This document shows positions 4,059 to 31,052 of a DNA stretch of 34,121 bases, in pieces (position 1 is the first letter of the stretch; each line of letters begins with the position of its first letter). A model generated the notes under the pieces. The model worked only from the letters and a program-made list of their open reading frames with translations. It did no database searches and was not told where the DNA came from. Location of the stretch: contig PBNO01000002.1 in NCBI GenBank assembly GCA_002723155.1, positions 249,461 through 283,581 on the forward strand, read 5' to 3'. The position numbers and the translations under genes were made by a program. This stretch comes from Ponticaulis sp. (GTDB taxonomy: Bacteria; Pseudomonadota; Alphaproteobacteria; Caulobacterales; Hyphomonadaceae).

Positions 4059-4083
4059 GGAATAAAACATCAGCTACCACGTC
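4059..4083 (+). promoter_or_regulatory. Candidate ECF sigma promoter (site A) of the Ala-rich protein/beta-barrel pair
   Basis: GGAATA (4059-4064), 15 bases, then CGTC (4080-4083). The spacing and both elements are the same as in sites at 7436-7460 and 31028-31052; the element is followed by ACTCC, close to AGTCC/AGTGC in the others. The -10-like element ends 35 bp before the ATG at 4119, leaving room for the ribosome site GAAGGAG. ECF-type promoter architecture is known; assignment to the ECF factor in this window is inference. Confidence 0.6.
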
Positions 4084-4118
4084 ACTCCAGCATCAACACG
4101 ATGACGAAGGAGTGTGTG

Positions 4119-4931
4119 ATGCTTAAGACAGTTTCCATTTCGACACTGACACTCGCAGCGGTGCTTGGCTTTCAGGCTCAGGCGCAATCTGTATCCGTAG
4201 ATGTTTCTGCGAGCGGTGCCGGTTCAGCAACAGCAACCAATAACGCCGTCACAACAACGGTCACCGCCGAAGGGAATGCCGATGCACAAGCGTCTGTATC
4301 GCCGGAAGGTGTAGAACGCTCAGCCGAAGCCGAAGGTGACGCAGACACAGACACGTCGGTTGCGCCAGGCATGGCCGATGAAGCAAGCATCGCTGCAGAA
4401 GGCGCAACCGAACGCACAGTGACGCTAGCAGGTGAAACCTCGGGCCGTGTCCTCGGCGAGAGCACCAGCTTTGTCCTCACTGCTGAACGCCAGAGCGAAG
4501 CAGCGATCAATGGCGCAATCGAGGACGGCGAAGCAACCGTTGAAGGCGCTGCCGAAACGACGCGTATGGTTTCAGCGCAGGCTGAAGGCGCGCTGAACGG
4601 CACGCTCGAAGCGACGAGCTCACGCGCTGCCTCCGGCTCTGCCACAATCACGGGCCTGGCTGACGACTCTGTGCCGGATCTTAGCGGTGCGGGCGATCTG
4701 CCTGTCGCAACTGAAATCGCTGGCGAGGTCTCCGGTGACGTCGCCTCGAACCTGTCGGCAACAATCAATGATGCCGTCAGCGCAGACATCGCAGGCGACC
4801 TTGCGGGCACAGTGAATGCTGAAATTGCCGGCGAGATCGGAGCAACCATCCGCGAAGCGCTCGCGACAGACATCGGCTCTGATATCCGCGAGAACATTGT
4901 GAACGACATCAGAAACAACCTGCCGCTCTAA
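4119..4931 (+). CDS. Secreted Ala-rich, acidic, repetitive protein of unknown function
   Basis: A 270-residue protein. I choose ATG 4119 because GAAGGAG lies just before it (4106-4112) and it opens a classical signal peptide (MLKTVSISTLTLAAVLGFQAQ, cleavage after AQA or nearby). An in-frame ATG at 4101 would overlap the ribosome site. The mature protein is rich in Ala, Gly, Thr, Glu and Asp and has no Cys. Its C-terminal 80 residues are built from loose repeats of the type I-A-G-(E/D)-(V/I/L)-x-G-x-(V/I), which may form amphipathic or beta-solenoid-like structure. No enzyme motif is visible and I do not recognise the family. It has its own candidate ECF promoter (site A) and stands 74 bp before the beta-barrel gene, with a hairpin between them, so the two are probably co-regulated envelope components. 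Confidence 0.8.
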   Translation: MLKTVSISTLTLAAVLGFQAQAQSVSVDVSASGAGSATATNNAVTTTVTAEGNADAQASVSPEGVERSAEAEGDADTDTSVAPGMADEASIAAEGATERTVTLAGETSGRVLGESTSFVLTAERQSEAAINGAIEDGEATVEGAAETTRMVSAQAEGALNGTLEATSSRAASGSATITGLADDSVPDLSGAGDLPVATEIAGEVSGDVASNLSATINDAVSADIAGDLAGTVNAEIAGEIGATIREALATDIGSDIRENIVNDIRNNLPL

Positions 4932-4948
4932 CCCCCGGGAGCAGCAGT

Positions 4949-4975
4949 GGCCGGCGCTCACTCGCGCCGGCCTTT
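4949..4975 (+). terminator. GC-rich hairpin between the Ala-rich protein and beta-barrel genes
   Basis: GGCCGGCGC (4949-4957) pairs perfectly with GCGCCGGCC (4964-4972) around a six-base loop, followed by only three T. This may be a leaky terminator or a transcript-stabilising hairpin that makes the upstream gene more abundant than the downstream one. Confidence 0.6.
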
Positions 4976-5005
4976 CCCCTGACAGATCATACCGGAGTAG
5001 ACTTC

Positions 5006-5926
5006 ATGAAACGTCCGATCCCATATCGGCGCATAGGCGCACTTTGCCTTCTGACCGCCCTCGCCCAACCGGCCATCGCGCAAGACGATCCGGTCACGTT
5101 TTCTGGTTCTGTAAGCGCAGGCATTGGCTCTGATTCCAATGTCGGCATTCCGGAACTCGACCAGACAACAGGTGAAGGTGACCTGTCATATCTGTTCAGC
5201 CTGGAAGGTAATGTGGAAGCTGATGCGAGCGAGCGCCTCACACTGCGCGCAGGCTATGAACTCGCCCATACCGGCTATCAGGACTTTGATCAGTTTTCCC
5301 TGCAGACACACCGGGGCTCGCTGGAAGCTGTATATGATTTTGATGTCGTGGAGGCGGGCGTCCTCTACAACTATGTCCATGCGCGCCTCGATAGCGAAGG
5401 TTATCTGAACTATCAGCAAGTTTCGCCTTATGTGACACATCTGGCCGGTGACCGTGTCTTCCTGCGCGGCGCTCTGGAGTTCACGGACAAGGATTTCCAG
5501 ACTGACGATGCCCGCGACGCCGAGGGACAGGGCCTGCGCGGCGACGTGTATTACTTCATCGATGGCGCATCGCAGTATGTTTCCCTCACCGGGCGCGTCC
5601 GCGAAGAAGACGCAAATTCAGACCTGTTTGACTTCACCGGCATGAGCGTGGATGCGCGCTATAATCAGGACTTTACGGTACTGGATCGATCCGCGGAGCT
5701 TCGCATTGGTGGCGGCTATGAAAGCCGGGAGTATGACGGCGTGGATCCGCTGATCAGTGACGCCCGCAGTGACGACATTCTATCTGCACAAACGGGTCTG
5801 GAGTTTGAACTTGCTGGCCCGCTCGCGCTCGACGTCGATTACAGCTATCGCGACCGCCAATCGAACCTGCCAAATGCCGATTATGACGAGCACGTTGCCG
5901 AGCTGAGACTTCGAGCTAGCTTTTAG
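5006..5926 (+). CDS. Outer-membrane beta-barrel protein
   Basis: A 306-residue protein with signal peptide (MKRPIPYRRIGALCLLTALAQPAIAQ, cleavage about residue 26). From about residue 31 the chain alternates hydrophobic and polar residues in repeated strands (VTFSGSVSAGIGSDSNVG, LTLRAGYELAHTGY, SLEAVYDFDVVEAGVLYNY, LALDVDYSYRDRQSN) and ends in Phe after LRLRAS, the classic C-terminal signal for BAM-dependent insertion. GIGSDSNVG near the first strand resembles barrels of the surface lipoprotein assembly modifier (DUF560) type, but no TPR domain is present and I do not claim that function. It follows the Ala-rich secreted protein and converges on the S8 protease gene with a single base between stop codons. 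Confidence 0.8.
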   Translation: MKRPIPYRRIGALCLLTALAQPAIAQDDPVTFSGSVSAGIGSDSNVGIPELDQTTGEGDLSYLFSLEGNVEADASERLTLRAGYELAHTGYQDFDQFSLQTHRGSLEAVYDFDVVEAGVLYNYVHARLDSEGYLNYQQVSPYVTHLAGDRVFLRGALEFTDKDFQTDDARDAEGQGLRGDVYYFIDGASQYVSLTGRVREEDANSDLFDFTGMSVDARYNQDFTVLDRSAELRIGGGYESREYDGVDPLISDARSDDILSAQTGLEFELAGPLALDVDYSYRDRQSNLPNADYDEHVAELRLRASF

Positions 5927-5927
5927 G

Positions 5928-7391
5928 TCAGTCTTCCTTCCTTGGGGCTATCATCAGCACCCCATAGCCGATGGCCTCATCCTTAGCCTGATCCTGCGTC
6001 CAGCCTACGGCGCGGATCAGGCGATTTTCTGCCTCATCGACTGCGGAAAACTCAGCATCCTCAACCCATCCTGCCAGAAATGCAGAGACAATTGGCGCCG
6101 CAAGCGATGTTCCTGAATCCCGCTGCTCGCCGCCATCGGGCGCAGCAACCAGGACATTGACCCCTTCCGCAGCGATATCGACATAGGGTCCGCGATTGGC
6201 CCAGCGATAAGGAACGCCATTTGCGTTCACTGCCGTGACACCGATAACGCCCTCATAGGCTGCCGGATAAAGCGGGCCAGATGCCGGACCTTCATTTCCA
6301 ACTGCGGCCACCACGACGATGCCACGCGCCTGTGCACTCTGGATCATACTCTCCAGCGCAGCGTTTGGCGGCCCCGTCAGGCTGAAATTGATGAGATCAA
6401 CGCCTTCGACAATCATCCAGTCGATGGCTTCGATCAGGCTGGCCGTTGTTGCGCCTGTCGTGCCGTCACTATCCAGAAAAAATACCGAAGCTCCCAACAG
6501 CTCCGGCGTTCGTTGCACGGTCGCATGACGAGACAAAACTGAGGCAACGGATGTTCCATGCCCTGTCGGGCGAAGCGCGCCATGGCTGACGAAATCTGCC
6601 TCGGTCAATTCCAGAGACTGAAGCAGAGGATGCGCCTCTTCAATATCGGTATCGACCATGCCGATGCGCAGGCCTCCACCCACACCTTCGAATGTCATGG
6701 GTGCTGCGGCGGGACGCATATCCTCGGAGATAACAGCCTGCGGCTCATCCAGAGCCGCGCGGCGGAAGACATGATTGCGCTCCACAATCTGTCCATCAAG
6801 CGCGGAAAGCTCTGCCTCTAACTGGCGGCGCGTCGTCGGATCATCAGGAAACTGCACGACAAGCAGCGTTTGAGACACTGACCCAAGATCGGTCTCCTCG
6901 AGAATATCCAAAGACAGCACAGAAAGCTCATCGACCGCGCTTGTCGGCACCATCACGATCCACTCATTGCGCATGACCGGCCAGCCATCGAAACGGTCGA
7001 TCTCGATGGCACGTTGCGGGCGCACCTGGCTGAAGGTTTCGCGAACGCCGGAGACGATGCCTCCTGTCAGCTCGCGCGTGGCGTCCAGTGTATTGCCGAT
7101 GCGATCAGAACTCAACACACGGTCGGTCAGCACCTCACCCAACTCACCATCGACGACCCGCTCTGGAAGGTCATCCAGCACATTGTCCAGGTTCTGAAGA
7201 CGGTCTTCTATCGGGCGCTGTATCTGATCGGAAAGCCTGTCTTCCACCCGGTCGGTCACGCCAGGCAGAAGCTGGGCATGCGCAGCGGGAATAGCGGTCA
7301 GACAGGTACAGGCGGCAAGCCCGAAACCGATGCGTCTGGCTCCCGCAAAAAGAGATATCACTGGCACACGGCGCTCCATCATCTTATTCAC
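5928..7391 (-). CDS. Secreted S8 (subtilisin-like) serine protease with N-terminal extension
   Basis: A 487-residue protein. A signal peptide runs to about AHA-Q40. Residues about 41-125 form a charged helical region (DRVEDRLSDQIQRPIEDRLQ...). Residues about 130-210 look like an inhibitor-type propeptide (NEWIVMVP... to VERNHVFR). The S8 domain spans about 240-485: Asp247 in IGMVDTDIEEAHP, His278 in TGHGTSVASVL, oxyanion Asn366 in AAVGNEGPA, Ser429 in DSGTSLAAP. All catalytic residues are present, so it should be active in the periplasm or outside. The longest frame starts with GTG at 7391; ATG codons at 7382 and 7379 are alternatives and no strong ribosome site decides among them. It is divergent from the ECF sigma gene and convergent with the barrel gene, which suggests a shared envelope role, possibly cleaving the Ala-rich protein or signalling to the sigma/anti-sigma pair (inference). 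Confidence 0.88.
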   Translation of the reverse strand: MNKMMERRVPVISLFAGARRIGFGLAACTCLTAIPAAHAQLLPGVTDRVEDRLSDQIQRPIEDRLQNLDNVLDDLPERVVDGELGEVLTDRVLSSDRIGNTLDATRELTGGIVSGVRETFSQVRPQRAIEIDRFDGWPVMRNEWIVMVPTSAVDELSVLSLDILEETDLGSVSQTLLVVQFPDDPTTRRQLEAELSALDGQIVERNHVFRRAALDEPQAVISEDMRPAAAPMTFEGVGGGLRIGMVDTDIEEAHPLLQSLELTEADFVSHGALRPTGHGTSVASVLSRHATVQRTPELLGASVFFLDSDGTTGATTASLIEAIDWMIVEGVDLINFSLTGPPNAALESMIQSAQARGIVVVAAVGNEGPASGPLYPAAYEGVIGVTAVNANGVPYRWANRGPYVDIAAEGVNVLVAAPDGGEQRDSGTSLAAPIVSAFLAGWVEDAEFSAVDEAENRLIRAVGWTQDQAKDEAIGYGVLMIAPRKED

Positions 7392-7435
7392 ATGACATAG
7401 AGACGGGACAGAACCAAAAAAATTTCACAGTGGCG

Positions 7436-7460
7436 GGAATAAAAACACATACGGTCCGTC
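7436..7460 (+). promoter_or_regulatory. Candidate ECF autoregulatory promoter (site B)
   Basis: GGAATA (7436-7441), 15 bases, CGTC (7457-7460), then AGTGC. This is the same element and spacing as sites A and C. It sits directly in front of an ECF sigma gene, where autoregulatory promoters are usual for this class. The -10-like element ends only eight bases before ATG 7469, so transcription would start at or next to the start codon and the mRNA would be leaderless or nearly so. This fits the lack of a Shine-Dalgarno sequence. Confidence 0.65.
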
Positions 7461-7468
7461 AGTGCAGC

Positions 7469-7966
7469 ATGATGAACAATAAACCTGATCTTGAACGTGA
7501 AATCCTGGAGGCTGTGCCGCATGTCCGGCGCTTTGCTTTCTCGCTGACACGAGATGCGACGGACGCTGACGATCTCGTCCAGTCCGCAATCGAGCGCGTG
7601 CTTGCGCGCGGCGTTCCCGATGATGCCGATCTGAAAAAATGGATGTTCCGCGTCTGCCGCAATCTCTGGATTGACGGACTGCGCGCGAAAAAAGTCCGGC
7701 AGGACGCAGTGCCAGAACTTTCAGAGGCACAACCCGAAACCGTATCCAGCGAACAGGTCGCCAGCGCGTCCATTATGTTTGCGCGTACGAAAGATGCGAT
7801 TGCAGCTCTGCCGGATACGTATCGCGAAGTTCTGACGATAATCGCCATTGGCGGCGCAAGCTATAAAGACGCGGCCGCTCAACTGAATATTCCGATCGGC
7901 ACGGTGATGAGCCGCCTTGGGCGCGCCCGTGCCATGATCGCAGACAAGGTGGGGTATCATGACTGA
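7469..7966 (+). CDS. ECF-family RNA polymerase sigma factor
   Basis: About 165 residues (from ATG 7469; a second ATG follows at once at 7472). Region 2 spans roughly HVRRFAFSLTRDATDADDLVQ through KKWMFRVCRNLWIDGLR. Region 4 spans LPDTYREVLTIIAIGGASYKDAAAQLNIPIGTVMSRLGRAR, a clear sigma-70 region 4 HTH. There is no region 1 or 3, which is the ECF layout. A longer frame begins at GTG 7430, but that lies within the candidate promoter and I reject it. The stop overlaps the start of the next gene by eight bases, the usual coupling to an anti-sigma factor. The candidate target sites (A, B, C) suggest a small envelope-related regulon. Confidence 0.93.
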   Translation: MMNNKPDLEREILEAVPHVRRFAFSLTRDATDADDLVQSAIERVLARGVPDDADLKKWMFRVCRNLWIDGLRAKKVRQDAVPELSEAQPETVSSEQVASASIMFARTKDAIAALPDTYREVLTIIAIGGASYKDAAAQLNIPIGTVMSRLGRARAMIADKVGYHD

Positions 7967-8753
7967 TCTGCCAAAAGACCTCGACGCACGCCTCAGCGCG
8001 TTTCTGGATGACGAACTCGGCGAGCTGGCCCGTGCTGAAATCGAAGCGCTGATTGTCAGCGACGAACGCGTTGCCGAACGCCTTGAAGCCCTCGCGCTCG
8101 CTGACTCCGACTATATCGAAACAGTAGGCGAAATTGACAGTGCACCAATGAGTGACGGTCTCAGCCGCACGGTTCGAAAGCTGGAAGCCTCCGACAAGGG
8201 ACAGGTTATTCTGTTTCCAGCATGGCGCCGCGGTATGCAGTTTGTAGAGCGTCACAGTGCGCTTGCCGCCTGCGCGGTGATCGGTATTGCGGTTGCATCC
8301 TTCATTCCGCAATTGATGGGCAACGGCTCAAACGAACTGCCGGACCTTTCCGCAGGCACCGTAATCACGGCAAACTCCGAGCTTGGCAGCTCAATCGCGT
8401 CAGCACGCGGCGGAGAGATGTTCACCGTTTCGGGCACAGAGTTCCAGCCGCGCTTCAGCTATCTCGCGGATGATGAAGCTTGCCGGTTGATGGATGCGAC
8501 AAGCGCATCTGAAACCACACGGTTCGTTGCCTGCATGACGCCTGATGGCTGGGAGCTGCGCATCGCAGAAGCAACGCCAGTGAGCGACCAACCGCCAGGT
8601 GGCCCATTCACGACGGCAAGCGGCCCGGCAGGCGAAGCGATTGAGGCTTTTCTGGATGAGACCATGACGAGCGCCCCTCTGGGCGCCGAAGAAGAGACCG
8701 CCCTGATGGAACAAGGCTGGGTAACGCGCGAGGAGATGACTGATGTCGAATAA
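7959..8753 (+). CDS. Membrane-anchored anti-sigma factor
   Basis: 264 residues, overlapping the ECF sigma gene. The first 50 residues (LDARLSAFLDDELGELARAEIEALI...) have the pattern of an anti-sigma N-terminal helical domain of the RseA/zinc-less type; no HxxxCxxC zinc motif is present. One membrane helix is visible at about residues 95-118 (ALAACAVIGIAVASFIP). The C-terminal ~145 residues would be periplasmic and contain two Cys (in DDEACRLMDA and FVACMTPDGW). This is the expected topology of a cytoplasmic sigma trap with an outside sensor. The two periplasmic Cys may form a disulfide (inference). Its stop overlaps the start of the lipoprotein gene, giving a three-gene operon. Confidence 0.85.
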   Translation: MTDLPKDLDARLSAFLDDELGELARAEIEALIVSDERVAERLEALALADSDYIETVGEIDSAPMSDGLSRTVRKLEASDKGQVILFPAWRRGMQFVERHSALAACAVIGIAVASFIPQLMGNGSNELPDLSAGTVITANSELGSSIASARGGEMFTVSGTEFQPRFSYLADDEACRLMDATSASETTRFVACMTPDGWELRIAEATPVSDQPPGGPFTTASGPAGEAIEAFLDETMTSAPLGAEEETALMEQGWVTREEMTDVE

Positions 8754-9258
8754 ACTTACCGCCATTCTGCTGGCCGCAGGTATTGCCCTCTCAGCCTGCG
8801 CCAGCGCGCCGGACTATACAGAGGCCCGGAACGACCGATCCTCCGGTTATTCTGAAACCCAGCTTGAAACGGACCGGTATCTGGTACGCTATCGCGTTCG
8901 CAATGACGAACTGGAAGAAGCCCGCACACTGGCGCTTCGCCGCGCAGCTGAGCTCACCCTTCTGAATGGGTATCAGACATTTGAAATTGTCTCACAAATC
9001 GGTACGCGGGACCGCGACAGCGACACCTTCCACAGCGCTTATCCGGCTGCGCCTGTAGTCGCGCAACGCTGCGGACTGTTGAGCTGCCAGAGCACCGTCA
9101 TTCATCAACCCGGGATTACGAGCACGACACGCTTCGAACGCGAAGAGAGCCTGGTCGAACTCGACATCGTCATGTCTGACAAAGACGCCCGCGTGAGCCC
9201 GTCGCTCTATGATGCTTCGGAAGTGTATGCCTCGCTTTCAGAAGACGACAGCCAATAA
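8743..9258 (+). CDS. CC0125/CC1285-type lipoprotein
   Basis: 171 residues, starting inside the end of the anti-sigma gene (ATG 8743). A lipoprotein signal peptide is clear: MSNKLTAILLAAGIALSAC with the lipobox LSAC, Cys about residue 19. Mature motifs SGYSETQLETDRYLVRYRV and ALRRAAELTLLNGYQTFEIV match the CC0125/CC1285 lipoprotein family that is common in alphaproteobacteria and has no established function. The residue after Cys is Ala, so sorting to the outer membrane by Lol would be expected. The translational overlap with an anti-sigma gene suggests it belongs to the same signalling module, perhaps as an envelope sensor (inference). It is followed by a strong terminator. Confidence 0.85.
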   Translation: MSNKLTAILLAAGIALSACASAPDYTEARNDRSSGYSETQLETDRYLVRYRVRNDELEEARTLALRRAAELTLLNGYQTFEIVSQIGTRDRDSDTFHSAYPAAPVVAQRCGLLSCQSTVIHQPGITSTTRFEREESLVELDIVMSDKDARVSPSLYDASEVYASLSEDDSQ

Positions 9259-9261
9259 CAA

Positions 9262-9293
9262 AAAAACCCCGGCCCAAAGGACCGGGGTTTGTG
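9262..9293 (+). terminator. Bidirectional terminator between ECF operon and chemoreceptor gene
   Basis: A CCCCGG/CCGGGG stem extended by flanking A and T (AAACCCCGG ... CCGGGGTTT) closes a short loop. The A run on the left (9261-9266) gives a T tract on the minus strand, so it can serve both the ECF operon and the leftward chemoreceptor gene, although the rightward T tract is short (TTTGTG). Confidence 0.8.
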
Positions 9294-9317
9294 CTGAGGG
9301 GTTTGGGTCTTCGCGAA

Positions 9318-11354
9318 TTACGCCGCGCGGACCTTTGTAAGGAAGTTGGTGATCGCAGACTGCATTTTGCCAGCTTCCTGAGTGATGCCGTGAGAAGCAC
9401 CTTCAACCTGGGTTGCACACTCGCCAGTTTCAGCCGTTGTCGCAGAGAGAGACTGGACGTGCTCTGATACGTCGCGTGCACCACCAGCAGCTTCCTGAGC
9501 AGAGCGGGAGATTTCCGCAATCGCTGCACGCTGCTGTTCCATCGCCGCCGCAATCGTGGAGGAGATGTTGTCGATGTTAGAGATCAGCTTGGAGATGTTC
9601 TCCATGACGCCAACCGCCATACCGGACGCATTCTGGATAGAAGAGATCTGCTGAGCGATCTGCTCTGTTGCACGAGATGTCTGGCTTGAAAGCGCCTTAA
9701 CTTCGCTCGCAACAACCGCAAAGCCTTTACCAGCTTCACCAGCACGTGCTGCTTCGATCGTCGCGTTGAGTGCGAGAAGGTTGGTCTGGCCCGCAATGTT
9801 GTTGATGAGTTCAACAACTGCGCCGATGTCTTCAGCAGCCTTATCGAGGCCACGAACACGCTCGGAAGATACAGTCATCTCTTCAACCGCTTCAGACGCG
9901 ATTTTCGTAGATTCGTGGATCTGCTGAGTGATTTCGACGATAGACGCAGAAAGCTCTTCAGCCGCAGATGCAACCGTACCGACGTTGTAAGAAGCGTTGT
10001 CAGCAGATTGTGACGCAGAGCCTGTCTGTTGTGCAGCATTCTCTGCAGAAGACTTCATAACAGACGCAGTGCTTTCGAGTTCACGTGTCGCACCGTTCAT
10101 CATTTCCAGCGTACCCTGCATTGTAGAGTCGAACTGGGAAATCAGATCTTCGATTGCTTTGGCACGTTCAGCGCGCGCTTCTTCTTCAACACGGGATGCT
10201 TCCTCGAGACGGACGCGCTCACGACCGTTTTCTTCGAAGACGCGGAGTGTCTTAGCCATCTGACCGATTTCGTCTTCACCGTCAGTGCCGCTCATGTCGA
10301 CATCAAACTCGCCATCAGCCAGACGGCCCATAGCTACAGTGAGTTTCGTCAGACGACGGGAGAGACCACGTTCAACGTAGAAGTAGCCGATTGCACCTGC
10401 ACCAGCCAGAGACGCCAGCGTGATGATGACAAGGAAGATCGTTGTCATAACGCTTGTCGCAGCTGCGCCGGACGCATTCGCATCAGCAGATTCTGAAAGT
10501 GCTGTCGCGAGCGCCTGAGCTTCAGTTTGAAGCGCAACAGCTTTGGCACCAGCTTCGTCAGCCACGGCATTCGCACGAGCAGACTGTTCAATCGCTGCGA
10601 TGCGCAGTTCAGGAACAGACCGGGCACCTTCGACGAGAGAGTTCAGATTGCTAACCGCATTGCGCAGGTCGCCAGAGACAGCACCGCCAAGGATGGCAAC
10701 GTTTACAGTCATCTCATCGACCTGGTCAAACATAGATTCCTGAAGCGCTGTCACATCCGCTGCATTGTCCATAAGGCTGGCTTCAGCGAACAGAGAGTTC
10801 AGCAGGTTTGCAGACAGAGAAATCCGCAGGAAGGTTTCGATGTCAGCTTCGTCAGCGGTATCAAGCTGTGCCTCAACTGCGTTTACAACTTCAGCACGGA
10901 AAGCCTGCGCCGTAATAAGCTGCGAGTTCAGTGAAACCTCTGTCGCGATGCGACGCTCGACAATCTGGTTCAGAGAGTCGATCGCACCCACCATTTCTGT
11001 ATAGGACGCCTCAACTGCAGCAAGGTTTATATCACCGTCGACTGCCAGTTCATCGAGATCGCGACGGATGATATCCATCATACCATTCACGACGTCCTGA
11101 CGCTCAAGGCGCGCATCTTCTTCACGCACGGATGCGAGATTTGTTGTTTCCGATGTCAGCGTATTCGCATACTGAGCGAGCTCAGCGGAATGCGTCAGCA
11201 TTGGAAGTGTTTCATTTGCGACCGTTTTCAGCGAGTTGCTGGATGAATTCAGCGCGAAAACGGAAATAGCAGAAACCATCAACACGACCACACCAGCCAG
11301 ACCAAATGCGGCCGGCAGGCGGAAGCGGATCAGTTTCGAATTAAAATTAGCCAT
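9318..11354 (-). CDS. Methyl-accepting chemotaxis protein with helical periplasmic sensor
   Basis: 678 residues. TM1 is at about 13-35, a ~265-residue periplasmic helical region with no Cache motif (four-helix-bundle-like) follows, TM2 is about 301-325, HAMP about 326-380 ([20 protein letters not shown] ... [13 protein letters not shown]), and the coiled-coil signalling domain runs to the end. The kinase-contact tip is the canonical [20 protein letters not shown]. The protein ends in FLTKVRAA and lacks the NWETF-type CheR/CheB tether. It would signal to CheA/CheW, none of which is encoded in this window. A ribosome site GAGGGG precedes ATG 11354. A hairpin at 11423-11443 lies in its leader. 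Confidence 0.93.
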
Positions 11355-11443: not shown

Positions 11444-11460
11444 GCCGTTAAATATTTTCA

Positions 11461-15504: not shown

Positions 15505-17673
15505 ATGCTGAATCGTATCGCGATTACGTACAAACTGCTGGGGCTCGTCGTCGGCGGGATTGCTGTAACGGCCATGACACTGGGATGGGTAACCAGTCAG
15601 GCCTCTTCAGAAGCGCTCGCGCGTTTATCTGAGGATAAGTTGAGTTCTATTGCTCAGACAGAGGCTGCTGCGTTTTCAGACTATCTGCAATCAATCCAGC
15701 AGGACCTCGACACCGTTGCAGACAACCCATTCACTCTGAGCGCACTACGCGGGTTCGAAAGTGGTTGGGATGCACTGGGCTCGAACCAGCTCAACACGCT
15801 CCAGGACCTCTACATCGAGTCTAACCCTAATCCGCTGGGTGAGAAGCATCTGCTCGACTATGCGAGCGACGGCTCGGAGTATTCGCAGGCGCATGCCGAG
15901 TTCCACCCATGGTTCCGCCAGTTTCTTGAGGCCCGCGGCTATTACGACATCTTCCTGTTCTCCAATGATGGCTCGCTGGTTTACACCGTATTCAAAGAGC
16001 TGGATTACGCGACCAATCTGCGTACTGGCGAATGGGCATCATCAGATCTTGGCGCTGCGTTCCGCGCCGCCGCTGACGATAGCGCCTATATCTCCGATCA
16101 CGCTTTCTTTGACTTTCAGCCCTACGCGCCAAGCCATGGCGCACCGGCGAGCTTCATTGCCCGCCCGATTCCAGATGAAAACGGCAATCAGGCAGGCGTG
16201 CTCGTCTTTCAGATGCCAATTGACCAGCTGAACGAGATTATGGGGGCTACATCAGGTCTCGGCGAAACGGGCGAGAGCTTCCTGATCGGCGAAGACGGTG
16301 TTCTGCGCACCGATGCGCCGCGTTCAGATACTTCGACGATCCTCAACGCACGCTTCCCGACGGACGGCCTCGCAGGTGCAGCGTCGCGTGACTTCGCTAT
16401 GTATGAAGGCGCTTCCTACACCGGCGCTGACGTTAGCGCAGCGATTGTGCCGGTCGAATTTGAAGGCACACAATGGTTTGTCGTCGCGCAGGAGAATACA
16501 GAAGAGCTGAACCAGCCAATTGCTGATCTGCAACAACGTACTCTGATCACATCGCTGATTGTTCTGGCCATTCTCGGGGTTGTCGGCGCGTTTTTCGCCC
16601 GCATGATCTCAGGTCCGATCGCATCCATTGCCAAAACAACTGACAAAATCGCCAATGGCTATTTTGATACGGTGATCCCTTACCAGAAGCGTGGCGACGA
16701 AATTGGCCCGCTGGCGCGCTCGCTTGAGAAGTTCCGTCTTGCCATGATCTCGGCTGACGAGCTTGCGAAAGAACAGCAGGAACGCGCCATTCAGGATCGC
16801 AGAGAAGCTGAGCAACGCGCTGCAATCGGCGAGGCCCTTGCAAACCGTGCCCGCAAGTTCGATGAGATCGTGAGCAGCGCGCTGGAACAGTTCACGAAGG
16901 CGGCCGGTAATCTCGATGAGAATGCATCCGCGATGGCCGCGATTGCCGAGGAAACAGCCTCACAGTCCAAGGGCATTACGTCAGCCTCACAGAACGCGTC
17001 CAGCAATGTTCAGAGCGTAGCAGCGGCAACCGAAGAACTGACAATGTCAGTGAACGAAATCAGCTCCAAGGTTGAACATTCACGTGACGCCACAAGCAAT
17101 GCTGTCTCTAAAGCAGAAGTTATGCGTGAACGCGTTGGCGGTCTGGAGACTGCAGCCAATGCGATCTCCGACGTCGTCGGTCTGATCACGGATATTGCTG
17201 GCCAGACCAACCTGCTTGCACTCAACGCAACCATCGAAGCAGCGCGCGCTGGCGAAGCGGGCAAAGGCTTTGCGGTTGTTGCAAGCGAAGTGAAAGCCCT
17301 CGCGACACAAACATCCAAAGCGACTGAAGATATCAGCCGTCAGGTTCACGCTATTCAGGAAACAACCTCAGCGTCTGTGTCCGGCATCCATGATATTCTG
17401 ACGGTCATCAGCGAGCTGGAAGAAGCGTCTGCTCAGATTTCTGCCGCGATTGCGCAACAAAACTCTGCGACCATGCAAATCTCTGAAAGCATTCAGAGTG
17501 CAGCCGGTAGCGTATCTGAAGTGGATAACAACATTCACGGCGTTAACGACGCGGCGCAGGAAGCAGGCGTCACTGCAACGCGCATGCGCACAGCCTCCGA
17601 GCTTCTGAGCGAGCAGTCCAACATTCTGAAAAGCGAAGTCATGAGCTTCCTGAATGATGTACGTGTCGCCTAG
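15505..17673 (+). CDS. Methyl-accepting chemotaxis protein with double-Cache sensor
   Basis: 722 residues. TM1 is about 10-32. A ~310-residue periplasmic domain follows with Cache features ([70 protein letters not shown]), best read as dCache; these often bind amino acids, amines or organic acids. TM2 is about 346-368, HAMP about 369-425, and the signalling domain carries the tip [20 protein letters not shown]. The C-terminus is FLNDVRVA with no CheR tether. A single gene, with its own terminator. No che genes are nearby. Confidence 0.93.
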
Positions 17674-19025: not shown

Positions 19026-19189
19026 CGTCTCACATCCCCCAATGTTCAGAACTATCAGCTTAGCCCGAACTTTCTGACACGCAATCAGCGCGCTTGCCCT
19101 TGTGCAGACGCGATGCTTAAAAGGCAACTCGAGAGGGAAACTGATCCATTCATCACCTCCCGAGCATGTATCCGGGGGGATTCGTCAAT

Positions 19190-20101
19190 ATGGATTGGTA
19201 TGTTCGCACGTCAGATGGCGAAAGCGGCCCGCTGTCAGAGGGGCTGATGGTCTCAGGCTTTCACGACGGGACGTATAGCGAAAAAACATCCGTCCGCGCG
19301 GCAGACGGTCTGATGTGGCGCCGCCTCGACGAAAGCGAGTTGGGCGACACGCTCGGCATCAAACCGGCCACCGTGACAGACGATGATGGCGCAATCAGGC
19401 GAATCCAGCCCGAGCTTTATCGCAAAATCAGCCTGCGCGGAGCCTTCCTGCAGATTTTCCTGACGCTGTTCGCTGCGCTCTGTCTGATCGCACTGATACC
19501 CATTGGCTATGTCTTCGTAGAGACGCTGATCGCCCCGCCCTTCCCTGACGACCTGATGAATAAACCCCATCTGATCGGCACGCTGGAACTGAACTATTAC
19601 ATTTCTCTGGTCCGCCTGATTGTTTTCCCCTTCGCTGCAATCTTCTTCATCCTGTTCTTCCACCAGGCGCTCAAAAATGTGCGCGTACTTGGCTCGAAAA
19701 GCGCGACCATGCCGCCATGGAGTATCTGGGCTTGGTTCTTTGTGCCGTTCGCCAACGTGATTCAGCCAGTCAAGGCGATGTCCCAGCTCTGGAGCGGGGC
19801 GCACCACCTTGCAGGCCGTGATGCCGCCAGTGCGATACCGCTCTTTCTGTGGTGGACATGCTGGCTGCTGCAAGCCGTCGCACTTCGTATCGGTGATTAT
19901 GCCTTTGCCGAGATGTTCCGGCGCGCCAATATCAGCATAACGCTTTACGAGCCGGCAGACTTCCAGACAGCATATGGCGCGATGTTCGTGGGCCTGCTCG
20001 CGCTTCTGATCTCCACCATCGGCCTCATGCTCATCGTCACTCGCATCTCCAAACTCAACAAAACGCTGAAGCATCAGTTTGATGTGGATGCGTTCTCCTG
20101 A
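19190..20101 (+). CDS. GYF_2 / DUF4328 membrane protein (first of a tandem pair)
   Basis: 303 residues from ATG 19190, preceded by GGGGGGA. Residues 1-55 are a GYF_2-like domain (MDWYVRTSDGESGPLSEGLM ... VRAADGLMWRRLDESELG), a cytoplasmic fold for peptide or protein contact. Four or five membrane segments follow (about 85-115, 130-165, 180-205, 220-240, 265-290), with the DUF4328 signature around MPPWSIWAWFFVPFANVIQPVKAMSQLW. The function is unknown. The next gene is a paralogue with the same domains, 49 bp downstream, so this looks like a local duplication kept in an operon. Confidence 0.82.
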   Translation: MDWYVRTSDGESGPLSEGLMVSGFHDGTYSEKTSVRAADGLMWRRLDESELGDTLGIKPATVTDDDGAIRRIQPELYRKISLRGAFLQIFLTLFAALCLIALIPIGYVFVETLIAPPFPDDLMNKPHLIGTLELNYYISLVRLIVFPFAAIFFILFFHQALKNVRVLGSKSATMPPWSIWAWFFVPFANVIQPVKAMSQLWSGAHHLAGRDAASAIPLFLWWTCWLLQAVALRIGDYAFAEMFRRANISITLYEPADFQTAYGAMFVGLLALLISTIGLMLIVTRISKLNKTLKHQFDVDAFS

Positions 20102-20150
20102 ACCGCATCAAGCCGGTTTGCGCAGCGCGCTCGCACAAGAGGGTACATTT

Positions 20151-21011
20151 ATGGAATGGTATGTCAGACAAGGCGTTACAGAACGCGGGCCAATGTCACT
20201 GGAGGAGCTACATCGCGACTACCGTGATGGTAGCGTTAGCGGCGACACACTCGTCAAATCCGATCACATTCCCGAATGGTCTCTTCTGAAGACAACGGAT
20301 GCAGCCGATGCACTGGGTATTCGCGTAGAAGCGACGGAACACGAAAAGCGCGGTCAGGTAAAACCGTTTGGACCGAGGCTCGGGCTTTTTCGCACAGCAG
20401 TCGGCCTGTTTGTCGGCGTCCACATCATCGCGATTCTGATAAACATCATCGTCATTTTCGCAATCGACACATCTACAGGCTATGTCGAAGAGGCCTTCCT
20501 CAACACGCCAACCGGCACAATAATATTCACGATCGTGGATTTCATACCGGTGGCGTCATCAGTCTCCTTCATTATCAGCGCGGTGACTTATTCGATCTTC
20601 TTCCATCACGCGCTGTTTAATGTGCGCCAGTTGAATGCCCCCGAAGCCACAATGAAGCCGTTTGAAGTCTGGATCTGGCATTTCGTGCCGATTGCAAGCT
20701 TCTGGAAACCTCTGGAAGCAATACGACAGATCTGGGACGCCTCCCATCGGCTGGCCGCAGATTCCGAAGCACCGGGCGGCCTTCTTGGCATCTGGTGGAC
20801 GACATGGATCGTCTCGCTGCTCGGCAATCGTTTCATGACCATGTATTATGAAAACATGACTGACCCGACCTCTCTGCCCGTCGCATTGATCGTCGAAAGC
20901 ATCATCACCGCCATCTTCGCCACATCGGCGATCTGCCTTTGGATCATGTCATCAAGGGTCGCTGATCTCCACCGTAAGATCGCTGACGGTGGACAGGCCG
21001 AAGTGTTCTGA
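20151..21011 (+). CDS. GYF_2 / DUF4328 membrane protein (second of a tandem pair)
   Basis: 286 residues from ATG 20151 (GAGGGT just before). The GYF_2-like start MEWYVRQGVTERGPMSLEELHRDYRDGSVSGDTLV is recognisable against the preceding gene. Membrane segments are at about 80-105, 125-155, 170-195, 205-225 and 245-270. The DUF4328 signature is present as MKPFEVWIWHFVPIASFWKPLEAIRQIWDASH, aligned with the same place in the paralogue. The sequences have diverged clearly, so the duplication is not recent. The function is unknown. yebC follows 84 bp downstream. Confidence 0.82.
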   Translation: MEWYVRQGVTERGPMSLEELHRDYRDGSVSGDTLVKSDHIPEWSLLKTTDAADALGIRVEATEHEKRGQVKPFGPRLGLFRTAVGLFVGVHIIAILINIIVIFAIDTSTGYVEEAFLNTPTGTIIFTIVDFIPVASSVSFIISAVTYSIFFHHALFNVRQLNAPEATMKPFEVWIWHFVPIASFWKPLEAIRQIWDASHRLAADSEAPGGLLGIWWTTWIVSLLGNRFMTMYYENMTDPTSLPVALIVESIITAIFATSAICLWIMSSRVADLHRKIADGGQAEVF

Positions 21012-23339: not shown

Positions 23340-25001
23340 ATGCCGGTGAGGAATATGAGCACGTCCAGTCAGCTAAATCTGATTGGAATTGCAAGCATTG
23401 TTGCGCTTGCAATCGTCATCGCGGGAATGACCGCATTCGCTTACAACAAAGAAGTCGAGAGCCGTAAGCAGGAGCTTCGCAGCCTCGTCGATTCTACACT
23501 CACACTGGTTGAGGATGCCCGCGCGAGCGGTGATCCGGAAGCCGGTCAAGTGATCAATCCGCTTCGCTATCGTGAGCGCGAATACTTCTTTGTTATCAAT
23601 ACTGATGCCTACATGGTGGCGCACCCTATCCGTCCGGAGCTTAACGGCACGGACCTGCGCGTTCCGGATGCAAGCGGTAACAATTATTTCGAAGAGATGA
23701 TTGAAACGGCGCTCGCTGATCCGCTTGGTGGATTTGTGAATTACGAGTGGGCGAAACCGGGCAATACACCGGAAGAGCTCTCTCCGAAGATCAGCTTTGT
23801 TCGGGCAACCGCTGACCGTCAGTGGATTGTCGGCACAGGCGTTTATGTTGATGATCTGCAGACCCTGCTCTGGCAGTATATCGCGACAGGCATTGCCGCG
23901 CTTCTTGTCATTGGCGGCCTCCTCTTCCTGATCATCCGCAGCATTGCGAACTCCATCAAGAAGCCGATCAACAGCCTGCGTGAGACCACAATTCAGCTGT
24001 CTTCCGGCAACACCTCCATCGTTGTGCCTGCGACTGACCGTACAGACGAAATTGGCGAAATGGCACGCGCAGTCGAGACCTTCAAGCAAGGCCTGATCGA
24101 ACGCGCCAGCCTTGAAGAAGAACGCACGCAAGCGAACAAAGCCAGCGCAGAACGTCAGGCACGTATCGATGCCATGATTGAAGGCTTCCGCGATGAAGCG
24201 CGCGGCCTCATCTCGAGCGTCGTTGAAAACGTCCACATGCTGAAAACGACCGCTGAGCAGGTCGAGGCGATTTCTCTGCAAACGACTGAAAGCTCCAGCA
24301 CAGCGCTTCGTGCAACCGGTCAGGCGTCTCAAAACGTTGAGACGGTTGCCGCGGCTTCCGAAGAACTGTCAGCATCTGTGTCTGAAATCATTCATGCGAT
24401 CACAGAGGCGAACTCATCAGTGTCCTCAACGTCTCAGGTCACGACTGAAACCTCCATCAATGTTCAGAAGCTTTCCGAGGCGGTGAACAAGATCGGCGAT
24501 GTCGTCACGCTGATCTCTGACATTGCAGAGCAGACAAACCTTCTCGCGCTGAACGCAACCATCGAAGCCGCACGCGCAGGCGATGCCGGCAGAGGCTTTG
24601 CCGTTGTTGCATCCGAAGTGAAACAGCTGGCAAACCAGACAGCTCGCGCTACAGAGGAAATCTCCGGTCAGATCATGGCGGTTCAGAATTCTACTGGTAT
24701 CGCGGTGTCGTCTATCGGCGAGATTTCGAGCGCGATGGAAGGCGTCTCCGGCACAATGGAAGCGATTGCCAGCTCGGTTGAGCAACAAGGCGGCGCGACA
24801 CGTGAGATCAGCGAGAACGCACAAATGGCAGCGGGCATGACACGCGATGTCGTGACGAATGCTGACGCGGTCGTTGGTATGGCCGAGAATTCAAAGGCTG
24901 CTGCGATTGCTGTGAAGTCTGCGGCGGACGAACTGTCTGCAGCCTCTAAAGATCTGGAACAACGCGTCGAGACATTCCTGTCCAACGTCGCTGCAGCCTG
25001 A
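23340..25001 (+). CDS. Methyl-accepting chemotaxis protein with single-Cache sensor
   Basis: 553 residues. TM1 is about 12-32, a sCache_2-like periplasmic domain about 33-175 ([40 protein letters not shown]), TM2 about 180-202, HAMP about 203-258, and the signalling domain tip is [20 protein letters not shown]. YFFVxNxDxxMVxHP is typical of sCache_2 receptors, many of which detect small carboxylates. The C-terminus is FLSNVAAA, without a CheR tether. Either ATG 23340 or the in-frame ATG 23355 (preceded by GTGAGGA) may be used; I list the longer one. Confidence 0.92.
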
Positions 25002-25017
25002 TCTGACACGATCTTAT

Positions 25018-25052
25018 AAAAACGCCCGGCCTTTTAAAGGTCGGGCGTTTTG
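25018..25052. terminator. Bidirectional terminator between chemoreceptor and ubiquinone hydroxylase genes
   Basis: AAAACGCCCG plus CCTTT pairs with AAAGG plus CGGGCGTTTT with one mismatch (G/T) in the arms. A and T tracts flank both sides, fitting the two convergent genes. Confidence 0.85.
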
Positions 25053-25056
25053 CGTT

Positions 25057-26313: not shown

Positions 26314-26470
26314 TTATCTCTCCTGATACCGGAAATCGATAATAGCTTACTGCGATTTCCCGACAAGCGGTGCAACGCTTTTGGGCGATTCAGTCGCAGG
26401 GTGCTCAGAACGTGACCAGTTTGTTCGTAACCCGTTTCAGATGCCCCAAGGCGCTTAGAAGAAACGAGCC

Positions 26471-26508
26471 GTTTTGCAAGATTGGCCCCCGAGCAAGCGG
26501 GGCAAAAC
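26471..26508 (+). promoter_or_regulatory. Compound hairpin in the amt leader
   Basis: GTTTTGC (26471-26477) is the exact reverse complement of GCAAAAC (26502-26508). Inside it CCCC (26486-26490 region) can pair with GGG (26499-26501). It ends about 31 bp before the amt ATG. It could be a 5' regulatory structure; there is no T run in the amt direction, so it is not a terminator. No convincing sigma-54 promoter (GG-N10-GC) was found in the intergenic region. Confidence 0.35.
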
Positions 26509-26539
26509 CGCTTCTCCTGATTAACGATTGGGGAAAACA

Positions 26540-27847: not shown

Positions 27848-27869
27848 GTTTGACCTGATCCTTATGAAG

Positions 27870-27899
27870 AACCCCGGTCCGAAAGGTCCGGGGTTTTTT
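27870..27899 (+). terminator. Rho-independent terminator of amt
   Basis: AACCCCGG-CC (27870-27880) pairs with GG-CCGGGGTT (27885-27895) around GAAA with one T/T mismatch, followed by TTTTT. Confidence 0.9.
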
Positions 27900-27945
27900 A
27901 TTGCCTGCACTCGCGAAGCCACTGGCTCACTGTCAAAAGCAGCGC

Positions 27946-27999
27946 AAAATGGCCGGAACTGCAGTTATTAACGAAAAATCTCGCAGTTTGGCCCATTTT
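27946..27999. repeat. Large imperfect inverted repeat between amt and ftsK
   Basis: The 17-base arms at 27946-27962 (AAAATGGCCGGAACTGC) and 27983-27999 (GCAGTTTGGCCCATTTT) pair at 14 of 17 positions, enclosing a 20-base A/T-rich loop. The right arm ends in a T run. It may be a second terminator, a structured ftsK leader, or a protein site. It lies about 90 bp before the ftsK start. Confidence 0.55.
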
Positions 28000-28085
28000 T
28001 CTGCCATATGTTTCCTGACCATTAAGCAAGAGACCGGCATTCTCAGAGCAACACCTAACGTTTTTCGCCTCTGAGATTTGCCAGA

Positions 28086-30557
28086 ATGACAAATTCAAAC
28101 ACTGCTGCTGCCATGTCAGACACAACATCACAGATGTCAGGTGAACCAATCTGGCGCATCCTTACCGGCTTCGGAATCTTCGCGCTGGGCGTCTTTCTGT
28201 GTGGCGCGGTCGGCTATTACGACCCGCAGGACCCGAGCCTGAACGCAGCAACCGGCAATGATGTAAGCAATCTCTTCGGCATGACGGGCGCTGTCGTGGC
28301 AGACCTCGCCAACCAGATCCTTGGTTGGGGCGGCATGCTTGGCGCATTCCTCGTATTCGCAGCAGGCCTTAAGCGTATGCTGCTGATCGGCAAGCCGTCT
28401 GCCTCCAATTGGGGGCTCGGCTTCCTCAGCGTTCTTGCAGCAAGCACATGTCTTGCCTCCTGGCCTATCCCGAACAGCTGGGTTCTGGCGACCTCGCTTG
28501 GCGGTATGACGGGCGACTTCCTGTTCGGTCTGGCGCGCCTGCCGTTTGCGGCGCTGCGCGTGCCATATCCTGATGTCGTCGCAGGTGTCGCCGCAGCTAT
28601 CCTCTCCTTCTTCCTGCTGACCCGCGCGGCTAATCTGGAAAACCGCGACCTGACGCGCCTTTCGCGTCTGTTCTTCCGCAATGTCGGCAAGCTGCTAGCT
28701 CTGCTGCTTTTGCCGCTTGGCCCTGTCGGGCGCTGGATCAGCCGCAACATGGTCGCGGGCGTCGAAAAGCTCAAATCATCCGTTTCAGGACTGGTGGGCG
28801 GCCTGTTCAACCGTGAACGCGACGACTACCCATATGTGCGCGGTGCGATCACGCCCGATGCCGACGATGACTACGGCTATTTTGATTACTCAAAATCCCA
28901 ACGCGAAGCTGAACAAGCCGAAGCGCCGAGAGAGGCCGATACCAAGCCTGAAACAAAAGCACAGCCGGAAGCCCCGCGTACACAGCGCCGCCAACGCCGC
29001 GAAACGCCTAAAGCCCCGCGCGTGAACAAGGCAGGCCTGCCTTCGCTCGACCTTCTGGTCACCCCGCCAGCCCGTACAGGCACAGTCGATGAACACCTGC
29101 TGTTAGAACGCGCAGAACATCTGATGCGCATTCTGAACGAGTTCGGCGTGAAGGGCCGTATCACGCAGGTACGCCCCGGCCCTGTTGTCACCCTGTTCGA
29201 GCTTGAACCTGCACCGGGTGTGAAATCCTCCCGCGTGATTGCGCTTGCAGATGACGTTGCCCGCTCCATGAGCGCGATCAGCGCGCGTATTGCCGTTGTG
29301 CCGGGCAAGAACGCCATCGGTATCGAACTTCCGAACAAATCCCGCGAGACGGTGTATCTGCGCACGCTTCTGGAAAGCCCGAGCTTTAATGACGGCAAGC
29401 AGAACCTGCCTATGGCGCTTGGCGAGGACATTGGCGGCGAGCCGGTTTGCGCAGATCTTGCGAAAATGCCTCACCTTCTCATCGCGGGTACAACGGGTTC
29501 TGGTAAGTCGGTTGGTATCAACGCGATGATCCTCTCGCTCATGTACAAGCTACCACCTGAGAAGTGCCGCTTCATCATGGTCGACCCGAAAATGCTCGAG
29601 CTTTCGATCTATGAAGGCATTCCGCACCTTCTCTCGCCTGTCGTGATCGACCCTAAAAAGGCGGTCACCGCGCTTAAATGGGCGGTTCGCGAGATGGAAA
29701 GCCGCTATGAGATGATGTCCAAGGCGGGCGTACGGAACCTTGCGGGCTTCAATGAGAAGGTAGAAGAGCTGAAACGCACTGGCGGTCGCCTCACGAAAGA
29801 AGTCCAGACGGGCTTTGAGGCCGATACAGGCCGCCCGGTCTATGAGACTGAGGAAATCCCGCTCGAGCAGGTACCGAACATCGTTATCGTGATCGACGAG
29901 ATGGCTGACCTGATGATGGTGGCCGGTAAAGAGATTGAAGCCTGCATTCAGCGCCTCGCCCAGATGGCGCGTGCGGCGGGCATTCACCTCATCACGGCGA
30001 CGCAGCGCCCATCGGTTGACGTTATCACCGGTACGATCAAAGCGAACTTCCCAACCCGTATTTCCTACATGGTGTCGTCCAAAATCGACTCGCGCACCAT
30101 TCTGAACGAACAGGGCGCCGAGCAGCTTCTTGGCATGGGCGACCTTCTCTACATGGCATCCGGCGGCAAGATTAAGCGTCTGCACGGTCCGTTCGTGTCT
30201 GACGAGGAAGTGGGCCAGATTGTTGAATTCCTGAAATCAACCGGCGAACCGGATTACCAGACCGACATCACTGAAGAACCCGACGAAGATCCGTTCGGCG
30301 GTGGTGGTGGTGGCGGTTCTCCTGTCATGGACGCCATGCTGGGCGGCAATGAAGAAGCCGACCTTCTTCAGCAAGCGATCCAGATCGTCGTTCGCGACAA
30401 GCGCGCCTCAACCTCGTATGTCCAGCGCCGCCTGAAAATCGGCTATAACCGGGCCGCATCGCTGATCGAACAGATGGAAGATATGGGTGTCATTTCTGCG
30501 CCCAACCATGCGGGCAAGCGGGAAATCCTGCGCAAAGCTCCTGGCGAAGAAGACTAA
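28086..30557 (+). CDS. ftsK: DNA translocase FtsK
   Basis: 823 residues. Four membrane helices (about 25-45, 70-95, 110-130, 160-185) anchor it at the division septum. A short charged, Pro/Arg/Glu-rich linker (about 230-310) follows. Motor: LFELEPAPGVKSSRVIALADDVARSMS (alpha), then Walker A GTTGSGKS (about residues 468-475), Walker B VIVIDEMADLMM (about 600), and TQRPSVDVITGTIKANFPTRISY. A seven-Gly linker (about 739-747) leads to the gamma winged-helix domain (ADLLQQAIQIVVRDKRASTSYVQRRLKIGYNRAASLIEQME), which reads KOPS orientation signals. The length is typical of alphaproteobacterial FtsK with its short linker. It clears and resolves chromosome termini at division. Followed by a strong terminator. 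Confidence 0.97.
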   Translation: MTNSNTAAAMSDTTSQMSGEPIWRILTGFGIFALGVFLCGAVGYYDPQDPSLNAATGNDVSNLFGMTGAVVADLANQILGWGGMLGAFLVFAAGLKRMLLIGKPSASNWGLGFLSVLAASTCLASWPIPNSWVLATSLGGMTGDFLFGLARLPFAALRVPYPDVVAGVAAAILSFFLLTRAANLENRDLTRLSRLFFRNVGKLLALLLLPLGPVGRWISRNMVAGVEKLKSSVSGLVGGLFNRERDDYPYVRGAITPDADDDYGYFDYSKSQREAEQAEAPREADTKPETKAQPEAPRTQRRQRRETPKAPRVNKAGLPSLDLLVTPPARTGTVDEHLLLERAEHLMRILNEFGVKGRITQVRPGPVVTLFELEPAPGVKSSRVIALADDVARSMSAISARIAVVPGKNAIGIELPNKSRETVYLRTLLESPSFNDGKQNLPMALGEDIGGEPVCADLAKMPHLLIAGTTGSGKSVGINAMILSLMYKLPPEKCRFIMVDPKMLELSIYEGIPHLLSPVVIDPKKAVTALKWAVREMESRYEMMSKAGVRNLAGFNEKVEELKRTGGRLTKEVQTGFEADTGRPVYETEEIPLEQVPNIVIVIDEMADLMMVAGKEIEACIQRLAQMARAAGIHLITATQRPSVDVITGTIKANFPTRISYMVSSKIDSRTILNEQGAEQLLGMGDLLYMASGGKIKRLHGPFVSDEEVGQIVEFLKSTGEPDYQTDITEEPDEDPFGGGGGGGSPVMDAMLGGNEEADLLQQAIQIVVRDKRASTSYVQRRLKIGYNRAASLIEQMEDMGVISAPNHAGKREILRKAPGEED

Positions 30558-30558
30558 C

Positions 30559-30590
30559 AAAAAAGCCCCGGACATCCGGGGCTTTTCTTT
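30559..30590. terminator. Bidirectional terminator between ftsK and the Tyr-rich protein gene
   Basis: AAAAGCCCCGG (30561-30571) pairs exactly with CCGGGGCTTTT (30576-30586) around a four-base loop, flanked by A and T tracts on both sides, serving two convergent genes. Confidence 0.93.
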
Positions 30591-30596
30591 TATGGG

Positions 30597-30995
30597 CTAG
30601 TCGATCCGTATCGCGACACGGGTTCCGCGGCGCTCATAAGCACGGTCATACCGGTCATAGCAGAAGGTCGATTCATAGCGCACACGGTCGCCATGCTGCC
30701 AGCCATACTGGAAACGCGTGTGGCAGTCATAACCGCCATAATATGGGTCGTAATGGTATGCGCGGTGGGTATGCCCCGCCTGATACCAGTGACCTGACGT
30801 ATAGCCGTTATAGGTGAAGCTATAGCTGGAATGACGACGCGGTTCAGGTGCGCGTCCAACTTGCACGCCGACACGAGCATCGGTGTTCACCCCAAGGCCC
30901 AATAGCTGGGCAGACGCCTGCGGCGCGGAGAACATCGCGCCCGCTGAAATAAGTGCGACGCAGACGGCTTTGGTAAGTTTATTCTGTTTCATCAT
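30597..30995 (-). CDS. Secreted Tyr/His/Arg-rich protein of unknown function
   Basis: 132 residues from ATG 30995, five bases after a perfect AGGAGG; the next ATG (30992) is equally possible. A signal peptide MKQNKLTKAVCVALISAGAMFSAPQASAQ is cleaved about ASA-Q. The mature ~100 residues are strikingly rich in aromatic and basic residues (about 14 Tyr; HWYQAGHTHRAYHYDPYYGGYDCHTRF), with two Cys (YDCHTR and TFCYDR) that may form a disulfide. I do not recognise the family; a cell-surface or metal-binding role is conceivable. It has its own candidate ECF promoter (site C). Confidence 0.78.
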   Translation of the reverse strand: MMKQNKLTKAVCVALISAGAMFSAPQASAQLLGLGVNTDARVGVQVGRAPEPRRHSSYSFTYNGYTSGHWYQAGHTHRAYHYDPYYGGYDCHTRFQYGWQHGDRVRYESTFCYDRYDRAYERRGTRVAIRID

Positions 30996-31027
30996 GATCG
31001 CCTCCTTTTGGCTTCTCATGATGGACT

Positions 31028-31052
31028 GACGGATGGACGACAGATTTATTCC
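31028..31052 (-). promoter_or_regulatory. Candidate ECF sigma promoter (site C) of the Tyr-rich protein gene
   Basis: On the minus strand GGAATA (31052-31047), 15 bases, CGTC (31031-31028), then AGTCC. Both elements and the spacing are identical to sites A and B, and the flanks are nearly the same (GGGAATAAA as in site B; TCCGTCAGT as in site B). The -10-like element ends 32 bp before ATG 30995. Confidence 0.62.

Follow-up and report, generated by a model that had tools for sequence, protein, structure and literature searches.

Extracytoplasmic function (ECF) sigma factors of group ECF26 are common, and the experimental regulons met in the literature searched are those of Sinorhizobium meliloti and Starkeya. 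The ECF26 consensus promoter has GGAATA at -35 and GT at -10, and the gene of the S. meliloti member RpoE6 is divergent from that of the serine protease SMa0142, an RpoE6 target, in an arrangement described as widely conserved in ECF26 (PMC6180224). GGAAT and CGTC are also found at sulfite oxidation promoters (PMC6527743). The ECF26 promoter type with a divergent protease is already known (PMC6180224). Here a window of 34,121 nucleotides (nt; the whole stretch of DNA analysed, G000:C2:249461-283581) was examined within the 3.84 Mb genome of Ponticaulis sp., referred to as G000. Three sites in this window very probably serve as promoters for the sigma factor whose gene lies at 7469-7966, and the sequence comparisons make it highly probable that they constitute the -35 and -10 elements of an apparently small ECF26-like regulon run by that protein.

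The preliminary description of the window had claimed three copies of GGAATA-N15-CGTC, each upstream of a correctly oriented gene, and no fourth. Exactly three were found, at 4059-4083 (+), 7436-7460 (+) and 31028-31052 (-), all before genes in the right orientation; shuffled windows contained a mean of 0.03 copies and three were reached in none of 100 shuffles. All three sites additionally share GGAATAAA and one stretch 3′ of CGTC, and an A/T tract lies 5′ of each -35 element. A weight model was trained on 59 sites picked by GGAAT[AG]-N15/16-CGT, none of them from G000 or its near copies G001 and G004. When both strands of the window were scanned with this model the three sites ranked first (32.6, 30.4 and 18.9 bits), and the next match, with CGCT instead of CGTC, reached 13.6 bits, in agreement with the claimed absence of a fourth site. 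A search for a sigma-70-like promoter between 3900 and 9400 found none. In the training sites A and then T are preferred from about 20 to 11 positions 5′ of the -35 element (for example T in 64% at -13), which would fit an UP element.

The comparison with related genomes showed that the sites are kept upstream of orthologues of both the sigma gene and the gene at 4119-4931, which encodes a secreted repeat protein. All 18 orthologue rows have GGAATA-N15/16-CGT ahead of the sigma gene, the rows representing 12 alphaproteobacterial genomes including that of the window, Amphiplicatus and five Gammaproteobacteria; G001, G004 and L047 were left out of this set and their sites tabulated separately. 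From named genomes 80 ECF26-like loci were taken and 79 used, one having too little upstream DNA. A sense GGAATA-N15/16-CGT[CT] was found upstream in 33 of the 79 against 0.06 expected, and an opposite-direction site in 25, with a gene for a subtilase of family S8 on that side in 12 of the 25. Spacers from 10 to 23 were tried at these loci, giving 15 (22 times), 16 (11 times) and 17 (once) and no others.

Genomes of the same genus, family and order were compared with the window's own, 61 in total, and a sigma homologue with at least 44% identity (E up to 7.6e-38) was found in 11 of them; at E 1e-32 one was present in 13 of 105 family genomes. The extended motif GGAATAA-N14-CGTC occurred 37 times in the 11 sigma bearers, against 12 for the control, and 28 times in the 50 other genomes, against 61 (Fisher P 9e-7); with the near copies G001 and G004 set aside, the counts for the bearers were 29 against 10. 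Conservation at orthologues, the model trained on foreign sites and this tracking of sigma presence all support the earlier proposal of an ECF regulon in which the sigma gene is autoregulated and the targets are exported.

A start codon for the sigma gene follows the -10 element within 11 nt in the 13 alphaproteobacterial rows (a script-chosen TTG 1 nt away in G024) and at 20-76 nt in the five gammaproteobacterial rows. In the former the sigma mRNA would therefore be leaderless or nearly so, and near-leaderless translation is suggested, although a Shine-Dalgarno-like string nonetheless occurs in four of the 13 rows. The sigma start at GTG 7430 from a mechanical list of open reading frames (ORFs) was rejected, as it overlaps promoter 2 and the conserved start is the ATG at 7469.

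The sigma factor is ECF26-like as judged from its promoter, gene layout and anti-sigma factor. It contains only sigma regions 2 and 4, as expected for ECF26, the sites carry GGAATA at -35 and GT at -10 (CGTC or CGTT), and a serine protease gene, that of the S8 subtilase, is divergent from the sigma gene. The preliminary description had compared the sites with the EcfG-type promoter, noting differences at both ends; the proper match is not a variant of that promoter but the ECF26 consensus of GGAATA and GT (PMC6180224). None of the three sites contains GGAAC-N16/17-GTT, and the neighbours are the S8 subtilase and a membrane anti-sigma factor, not PhyR and NepR; the strong PhyR match of G000 is found on a different contig, next to another ECF gene. 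A tree of 99 sigma proteins placed that of the window in a clade of 16 rows (support 98/81) with S8 near every row. The split between this clade and that of RpoE6 (locus L206) was unsupported (33/24); the PhyR-linked paralogue fell in a separate clade.

Among described systems, that of RpoE6, EcfR6 and SMa0142 resembles the window in its GGAATA/(C)GT promoters, in an anti-sigma factor with a single membrane domain encoded after the sigma factor and in the divergent S8 gene, and the S. meliloti pSymA locus L206 has S8, sigma and anti-sigma genes laid out as in the window. It differs in that no barrel match lies near L206, and in S. meliloti an enzyme of glyoxylase type, the protease and hypothetical proteins stand out among the local targets (PMC6180224). 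There the promoter of RpoE6 itself is given as not of the ECF26 type (PMC6180224), unlike that of the window sigma gene, and S8 is an RpoE6 target, whereas the region before S8 in the window has no good site, its best score in the weight model being just 8.7 bits. Some relatives have two divergent sites between the sigma and S8 genes (L164, 8853 (-) and 8875 (+); likewise L041 and L049), so that S8 would be co-regulated there; only the sigma-facing site is present in the window. RpoE1 and RpoE4 of S. meliloti and SigE of Starkeya share -35 GGAAT, -10 CGTC and small regulons with the window, and RpoE1 and RpoE4 are autoregulated, but these factors target sulfite oxidation genes, of which the window has none (rest of the genome not searched) (PMC3511301, PMC6527743).

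The ECF15/EcfG group likewise consists of alphaproteobacterial ECF factors with a GGAA-type -35 element; it is set apart by GGAAC/GTT in place of GGAAT/CGTC, by its PhyR linkage and by its separate clade. The envelope stress systems AlgU-MucA and RpoE-RseA are similar in having a membrane anti-sigma factor with an N-terminal anti-sigma domain. Profile matches of the window anti-sigma factor to MucA (E 0.16) and RseA (E 0.23) were weak and not significant, and it differs from both in a conserved cysteine pair and in the linked protease, which is a subtilase. DegS and AlgW are trypsin-like proteases. The anti-sigma factor appears to have the layout expected for ECF26, with an N-terminal anti-sigma domain, a single membrane domain and a C-terminal domain in the periplasm, in an alignment of 12 homologues and in a predicted model (predicted local distance difference test score 78.9), the Pfam match being only below the cut-off. 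The gene overlaps the sigma gene and is followed by the lipoprotein gene. Two cysteines of the outer domain are invariant in all 12 aligned homologues, from two classes, and might form a redox-sensitive disulfide.

Table 1. Features of the window discussed in the text.
Feature	Position	Strand	Evidence and remarks
Promoter 1, before secreted repeat protein and barrel genes	4059..4083	+	-35 GGAATAAA, N15 after GGAATA, -10 CGTC; 30.4 bits; in 16/17 block loci
Candidate UP element, A/T tract region preceding promoter 1	4039..4058	+	Weight-model scan and training consensus; role inferred
Secreted Ala-rich protein, ends in 19 unbroken [VIL]xxx units	4119..4931	+	Alternative start 4101; no Pfam family
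Outer-membrane beta-barrel protein	5006..5926	+	PF13505, PF10082
Exported S8 subtilase, divergent from sigma gene	5928..7391	-	PF00082; short [VIL]xxx run after signal peptide
Candidate UP element, A-tract (AAAAAAATTT...) preceding promoter 2	7416..7435	+	Weight-model scan and training consensus; role inferred
Promoter 2, before sigma operon (putative autoregulation)	7436..7460	+	32.6 bits; 18/18 orthologue rows
ECF sigma factor, ECF26-like	7469..7966	+	Pfam sigma regions 2 and 4; tree; ATG 8 nt after -10 element
Anti-sigma factor, N-terminal anti-sigma domain, one membrane helix and C-terminal domain with two invariant cysteines	7959..8753	+	Topology inferred
Lipoprotein, CC0125/CC1285 family, last gene of sigma operon	8743..9258	+	NF047637 above cut-off
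Tyr/His-rich secreted protein	30597..30995	-	No Pfam family; 23 kb from sigma block
Promoter 3, before Tyr-rich secreted protein	31028..31052	-	18.9 bits; 4/4 sigma-bearing genomes with Tyr-rich gene

The sigma and anti-sigma genes belong to a block, in the order repeat protein, barrel, S8, sigma and anti-sigma, that is conserved across families and in Gammaproteobacteria. The barrel gene is probably co-transcribed with the repeat gene, as the gap between them is 74 nt, and both are convergent with the S8 gene. The subtilase, which the preliminary description had passed over, is a member of this block, and its expected catalytic residues D247, H278 and S429 are invariant in 14 of 14 aligned sequences. 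The complete set of repeat gene, barrel, S8 and sigma gene was observed at 17 loci (G000, G005, G034, G066, G080, G026, G032, G123, G018, G040, L039-L043, L046 and L047), the acidic protein of L046 and L047 being taken as the repeat gene by position and site. Outside this set are G001 and G004 as near copies of G000, L044, where the repeat gene was not found, G024 and G003, whose contigs are too short, and L102, which was not read for the repeat gene. An exact site precedes the repeat gene in 16 of the 17 loci, and two repeat genes occur in each of G034 and G066, every one with a site. The CC0125-family lipoprotein gene of G123 and G018 lies outside the sigma operon and has its own ECF26-type site (L227 15554 (+); L167 2992 (-)); among out-of-operon copies 20 others plus one more lacked a site, and one of 22 had a site there.

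Homologues of the Tyr-rich protein were found in 15 of the 105 family genomes, in two genera. The four of these genomes that carry the sigma gene all have an ECF26-type site before the Tyr-rich gene. No sigma orthologue was found at E 1e-32 in the other eleven, which belong to genus g5, nor at 1e-20 in G030, the only genome to which that looser threshold was applied. In nine of the eleven g5 genomes the homologue is 41-48% identical across most of its length, and all nine (L152, L209-L216) have an EcfG-type GGAAC-N17-GTT 54-80 nt before the match, where 0.05 would be expected and the opposite strand has none. The five remaining Tyr-rich matches, which are 34-37% identical copies or pieces of 34-40 residues, have neither site type. 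Six genomes were tried for PhyR-domain matches, two from genus g1 and four from g5, and all six had them. From these patterns EcfG appears to own the promoter of the Tyr-rich homologue in g5, and the simplest reading is that the gene encodes a sigma-controlled surface protein whose promoter class varies with the sigma factors available.

In the mechanism proposed, the inner-membrane anti-sigma factor would hold the sigma factor until an envelope signal frees it, possibly through proteolysis. The free sigma factor would amplify its own operon from 7436-7460 and activate a surface module, comprising the repeat protein and barrel from 4059-4083 and the Tyr-rich protein from 31028-31052, so that transcription from the three sites would be sigma-dependent and might be assisted by the A-tract acting as an UP element. 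The barrel may export or anchor the repeat protein, and the subtilase may process the repeat protein or else cut the anti-sigma factor.

Several observations weigh against a regulon of this kind. The genome-wide search suggested in the preliminary description did not bear out an excess of the bare motif GGAATA-N15-CGTC, which occurred at control level with 8 places against 10 for the reversed pattern; three of the five hits beyond the window fall within ORFs of 100 residues or more, and the best is on contig C9. That place, G000:C9:84836 (L006 1525 (-), 16.9 bits), is an intergenic GGAATAA site with an A-rich upstream stretch and has a counterpart in G001 (L130 1501 (+)). Of the 37 extended-motif places in sigma bearers, 18 are the block and Tyr-rich sites and the remaining 19 only slightly outnumber the 12 of the control. 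The repeat-gene site of G005 has one -35 mismatch (GAAATA), L044 has the barrel, S8 and sigma genes but neither a repeat gene nor a second site was found there, and crosstalk is reported among the S. meliloti ECF26 and RpoE2 regulons (PMC6180224). As the bare motif lacks genome-wide enrichment the regulon looks small, and as the 19 places barely exceed the control no larger regulon is visible. The control-level count could also mean that chance produced the resemblance at the three sites or that they are repeats with no promoter role, but this is extremely improbable given the shuffling result, the retention of the sites upstream of orthologues across classes and the first ranks that the independently trained model gave them. 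Somewhat less remote, yet still improbable, is that a different sigma factor, for instance EcfG of the general stress response, is the main reader of the sites, with the local ECF gene as one more target: G000 encodes a PhyR-domain protein with an adjacent ECF paralogue, the RpoE6 and RpoE2 regulons of S. meliloti overlap (PMC6180224) and EcfG-type sites precede the g5 Tyr-rich homologues. The window sites differ from EcfG sites, however, in having GGAAT for GGAAC and CGTC for GTT, the site type follows the presence of the sigma orthologue and precedes its gene in every orthologue row, and the PhyR-linked paralogue lies in a separate clade, all of which favours the local sigma factor.

For the subtilase part of the evidence lies in the four-residue repeat [VIL]xxx, which fills the C-terminus of the window repeat protein (4692-4931) with 19 units unbroken. 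Runs of 9 to 46 units were present in the repeat proteins of all 12 block loci scored (L040, L042, L043, L046 and L047 were outside the scoring), and none of 500 shuffles had a run as long; autocorrelation over the last 90 residues gave a clear period in 11 of 13 cases but not in G034 (z 1.9) or L046 (0.9). The window subtilase has a run of seven after its signal peptide (near 7190-7275; shuffle P 0.036). Whether S8 only matures the exported repeat protein, with no part in signalling, or instead cuts the anti-sigma factor is evenly balanced. The pre-domain run of S8 is significant (P < 0.05) in eight of the 12 loci, no run longer than 6 occurs in 15 S8 proteins of loci that lack a barrel match, and across the 12 loci the two repeats of one locus resemble each other in residue composition more than repeats of different loci do (P 0.0012; 0.015 without G040, where both repeats are strongly acidic), all of which speaks for maturation. 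In G034, G066, G080 and L041, however, the run is missing or falls short of significance, and the longest is just 3-4 units in L040, L042, L046, L047 and L102. In addition, S8 persists beside ECF26 sigma genes that lack a repeat protein, for example that of RpoE6 (PMC6180224), which favours a signalling role. A more speculative proposal, which we regard as unlikely, is that a distinct ECF26 branch senses and builds a cell-surface structure: S8 and the structural protein would recognise each other through the common repeat, and S8 would report the arrival of the repeat protein at the surface through the barrel and cut the anti-sigma factor accordingly. If true, this would be an outside-in feedback loop present in Alpha- and Gammaproteobacteria.

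Elsewhere in the window three methyl-accepting-chemotaxis-like genes were recognised by eye within 16 kb (9318-11354, 15505-17673 and 23340-25001), as were adjacent similar-looking membrane proteins at 19166-20101 and 20079-21011, perhaps a tandem duplication.

No description of the output module of repeat protein and barrel, or of the promoter swap, was found in the literature searched, few subscription papers being within reach. The echo of the repeat in the S8 of some loci, the upstream A-tract and the near-leaderless sigma mRNAs are apparently also undescribed. The Tyr-rich gene, with an ECF26-type promoter in one set of genomes and an EcfG-type promoter in the other, would provide a clean natural example of a target moving between sigma factors. 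For ECF26 sigma factors, the window adds a coherent surface-protein output that is predicted from sequence, conserved in two classes and accompanied by testable genes and promoters.

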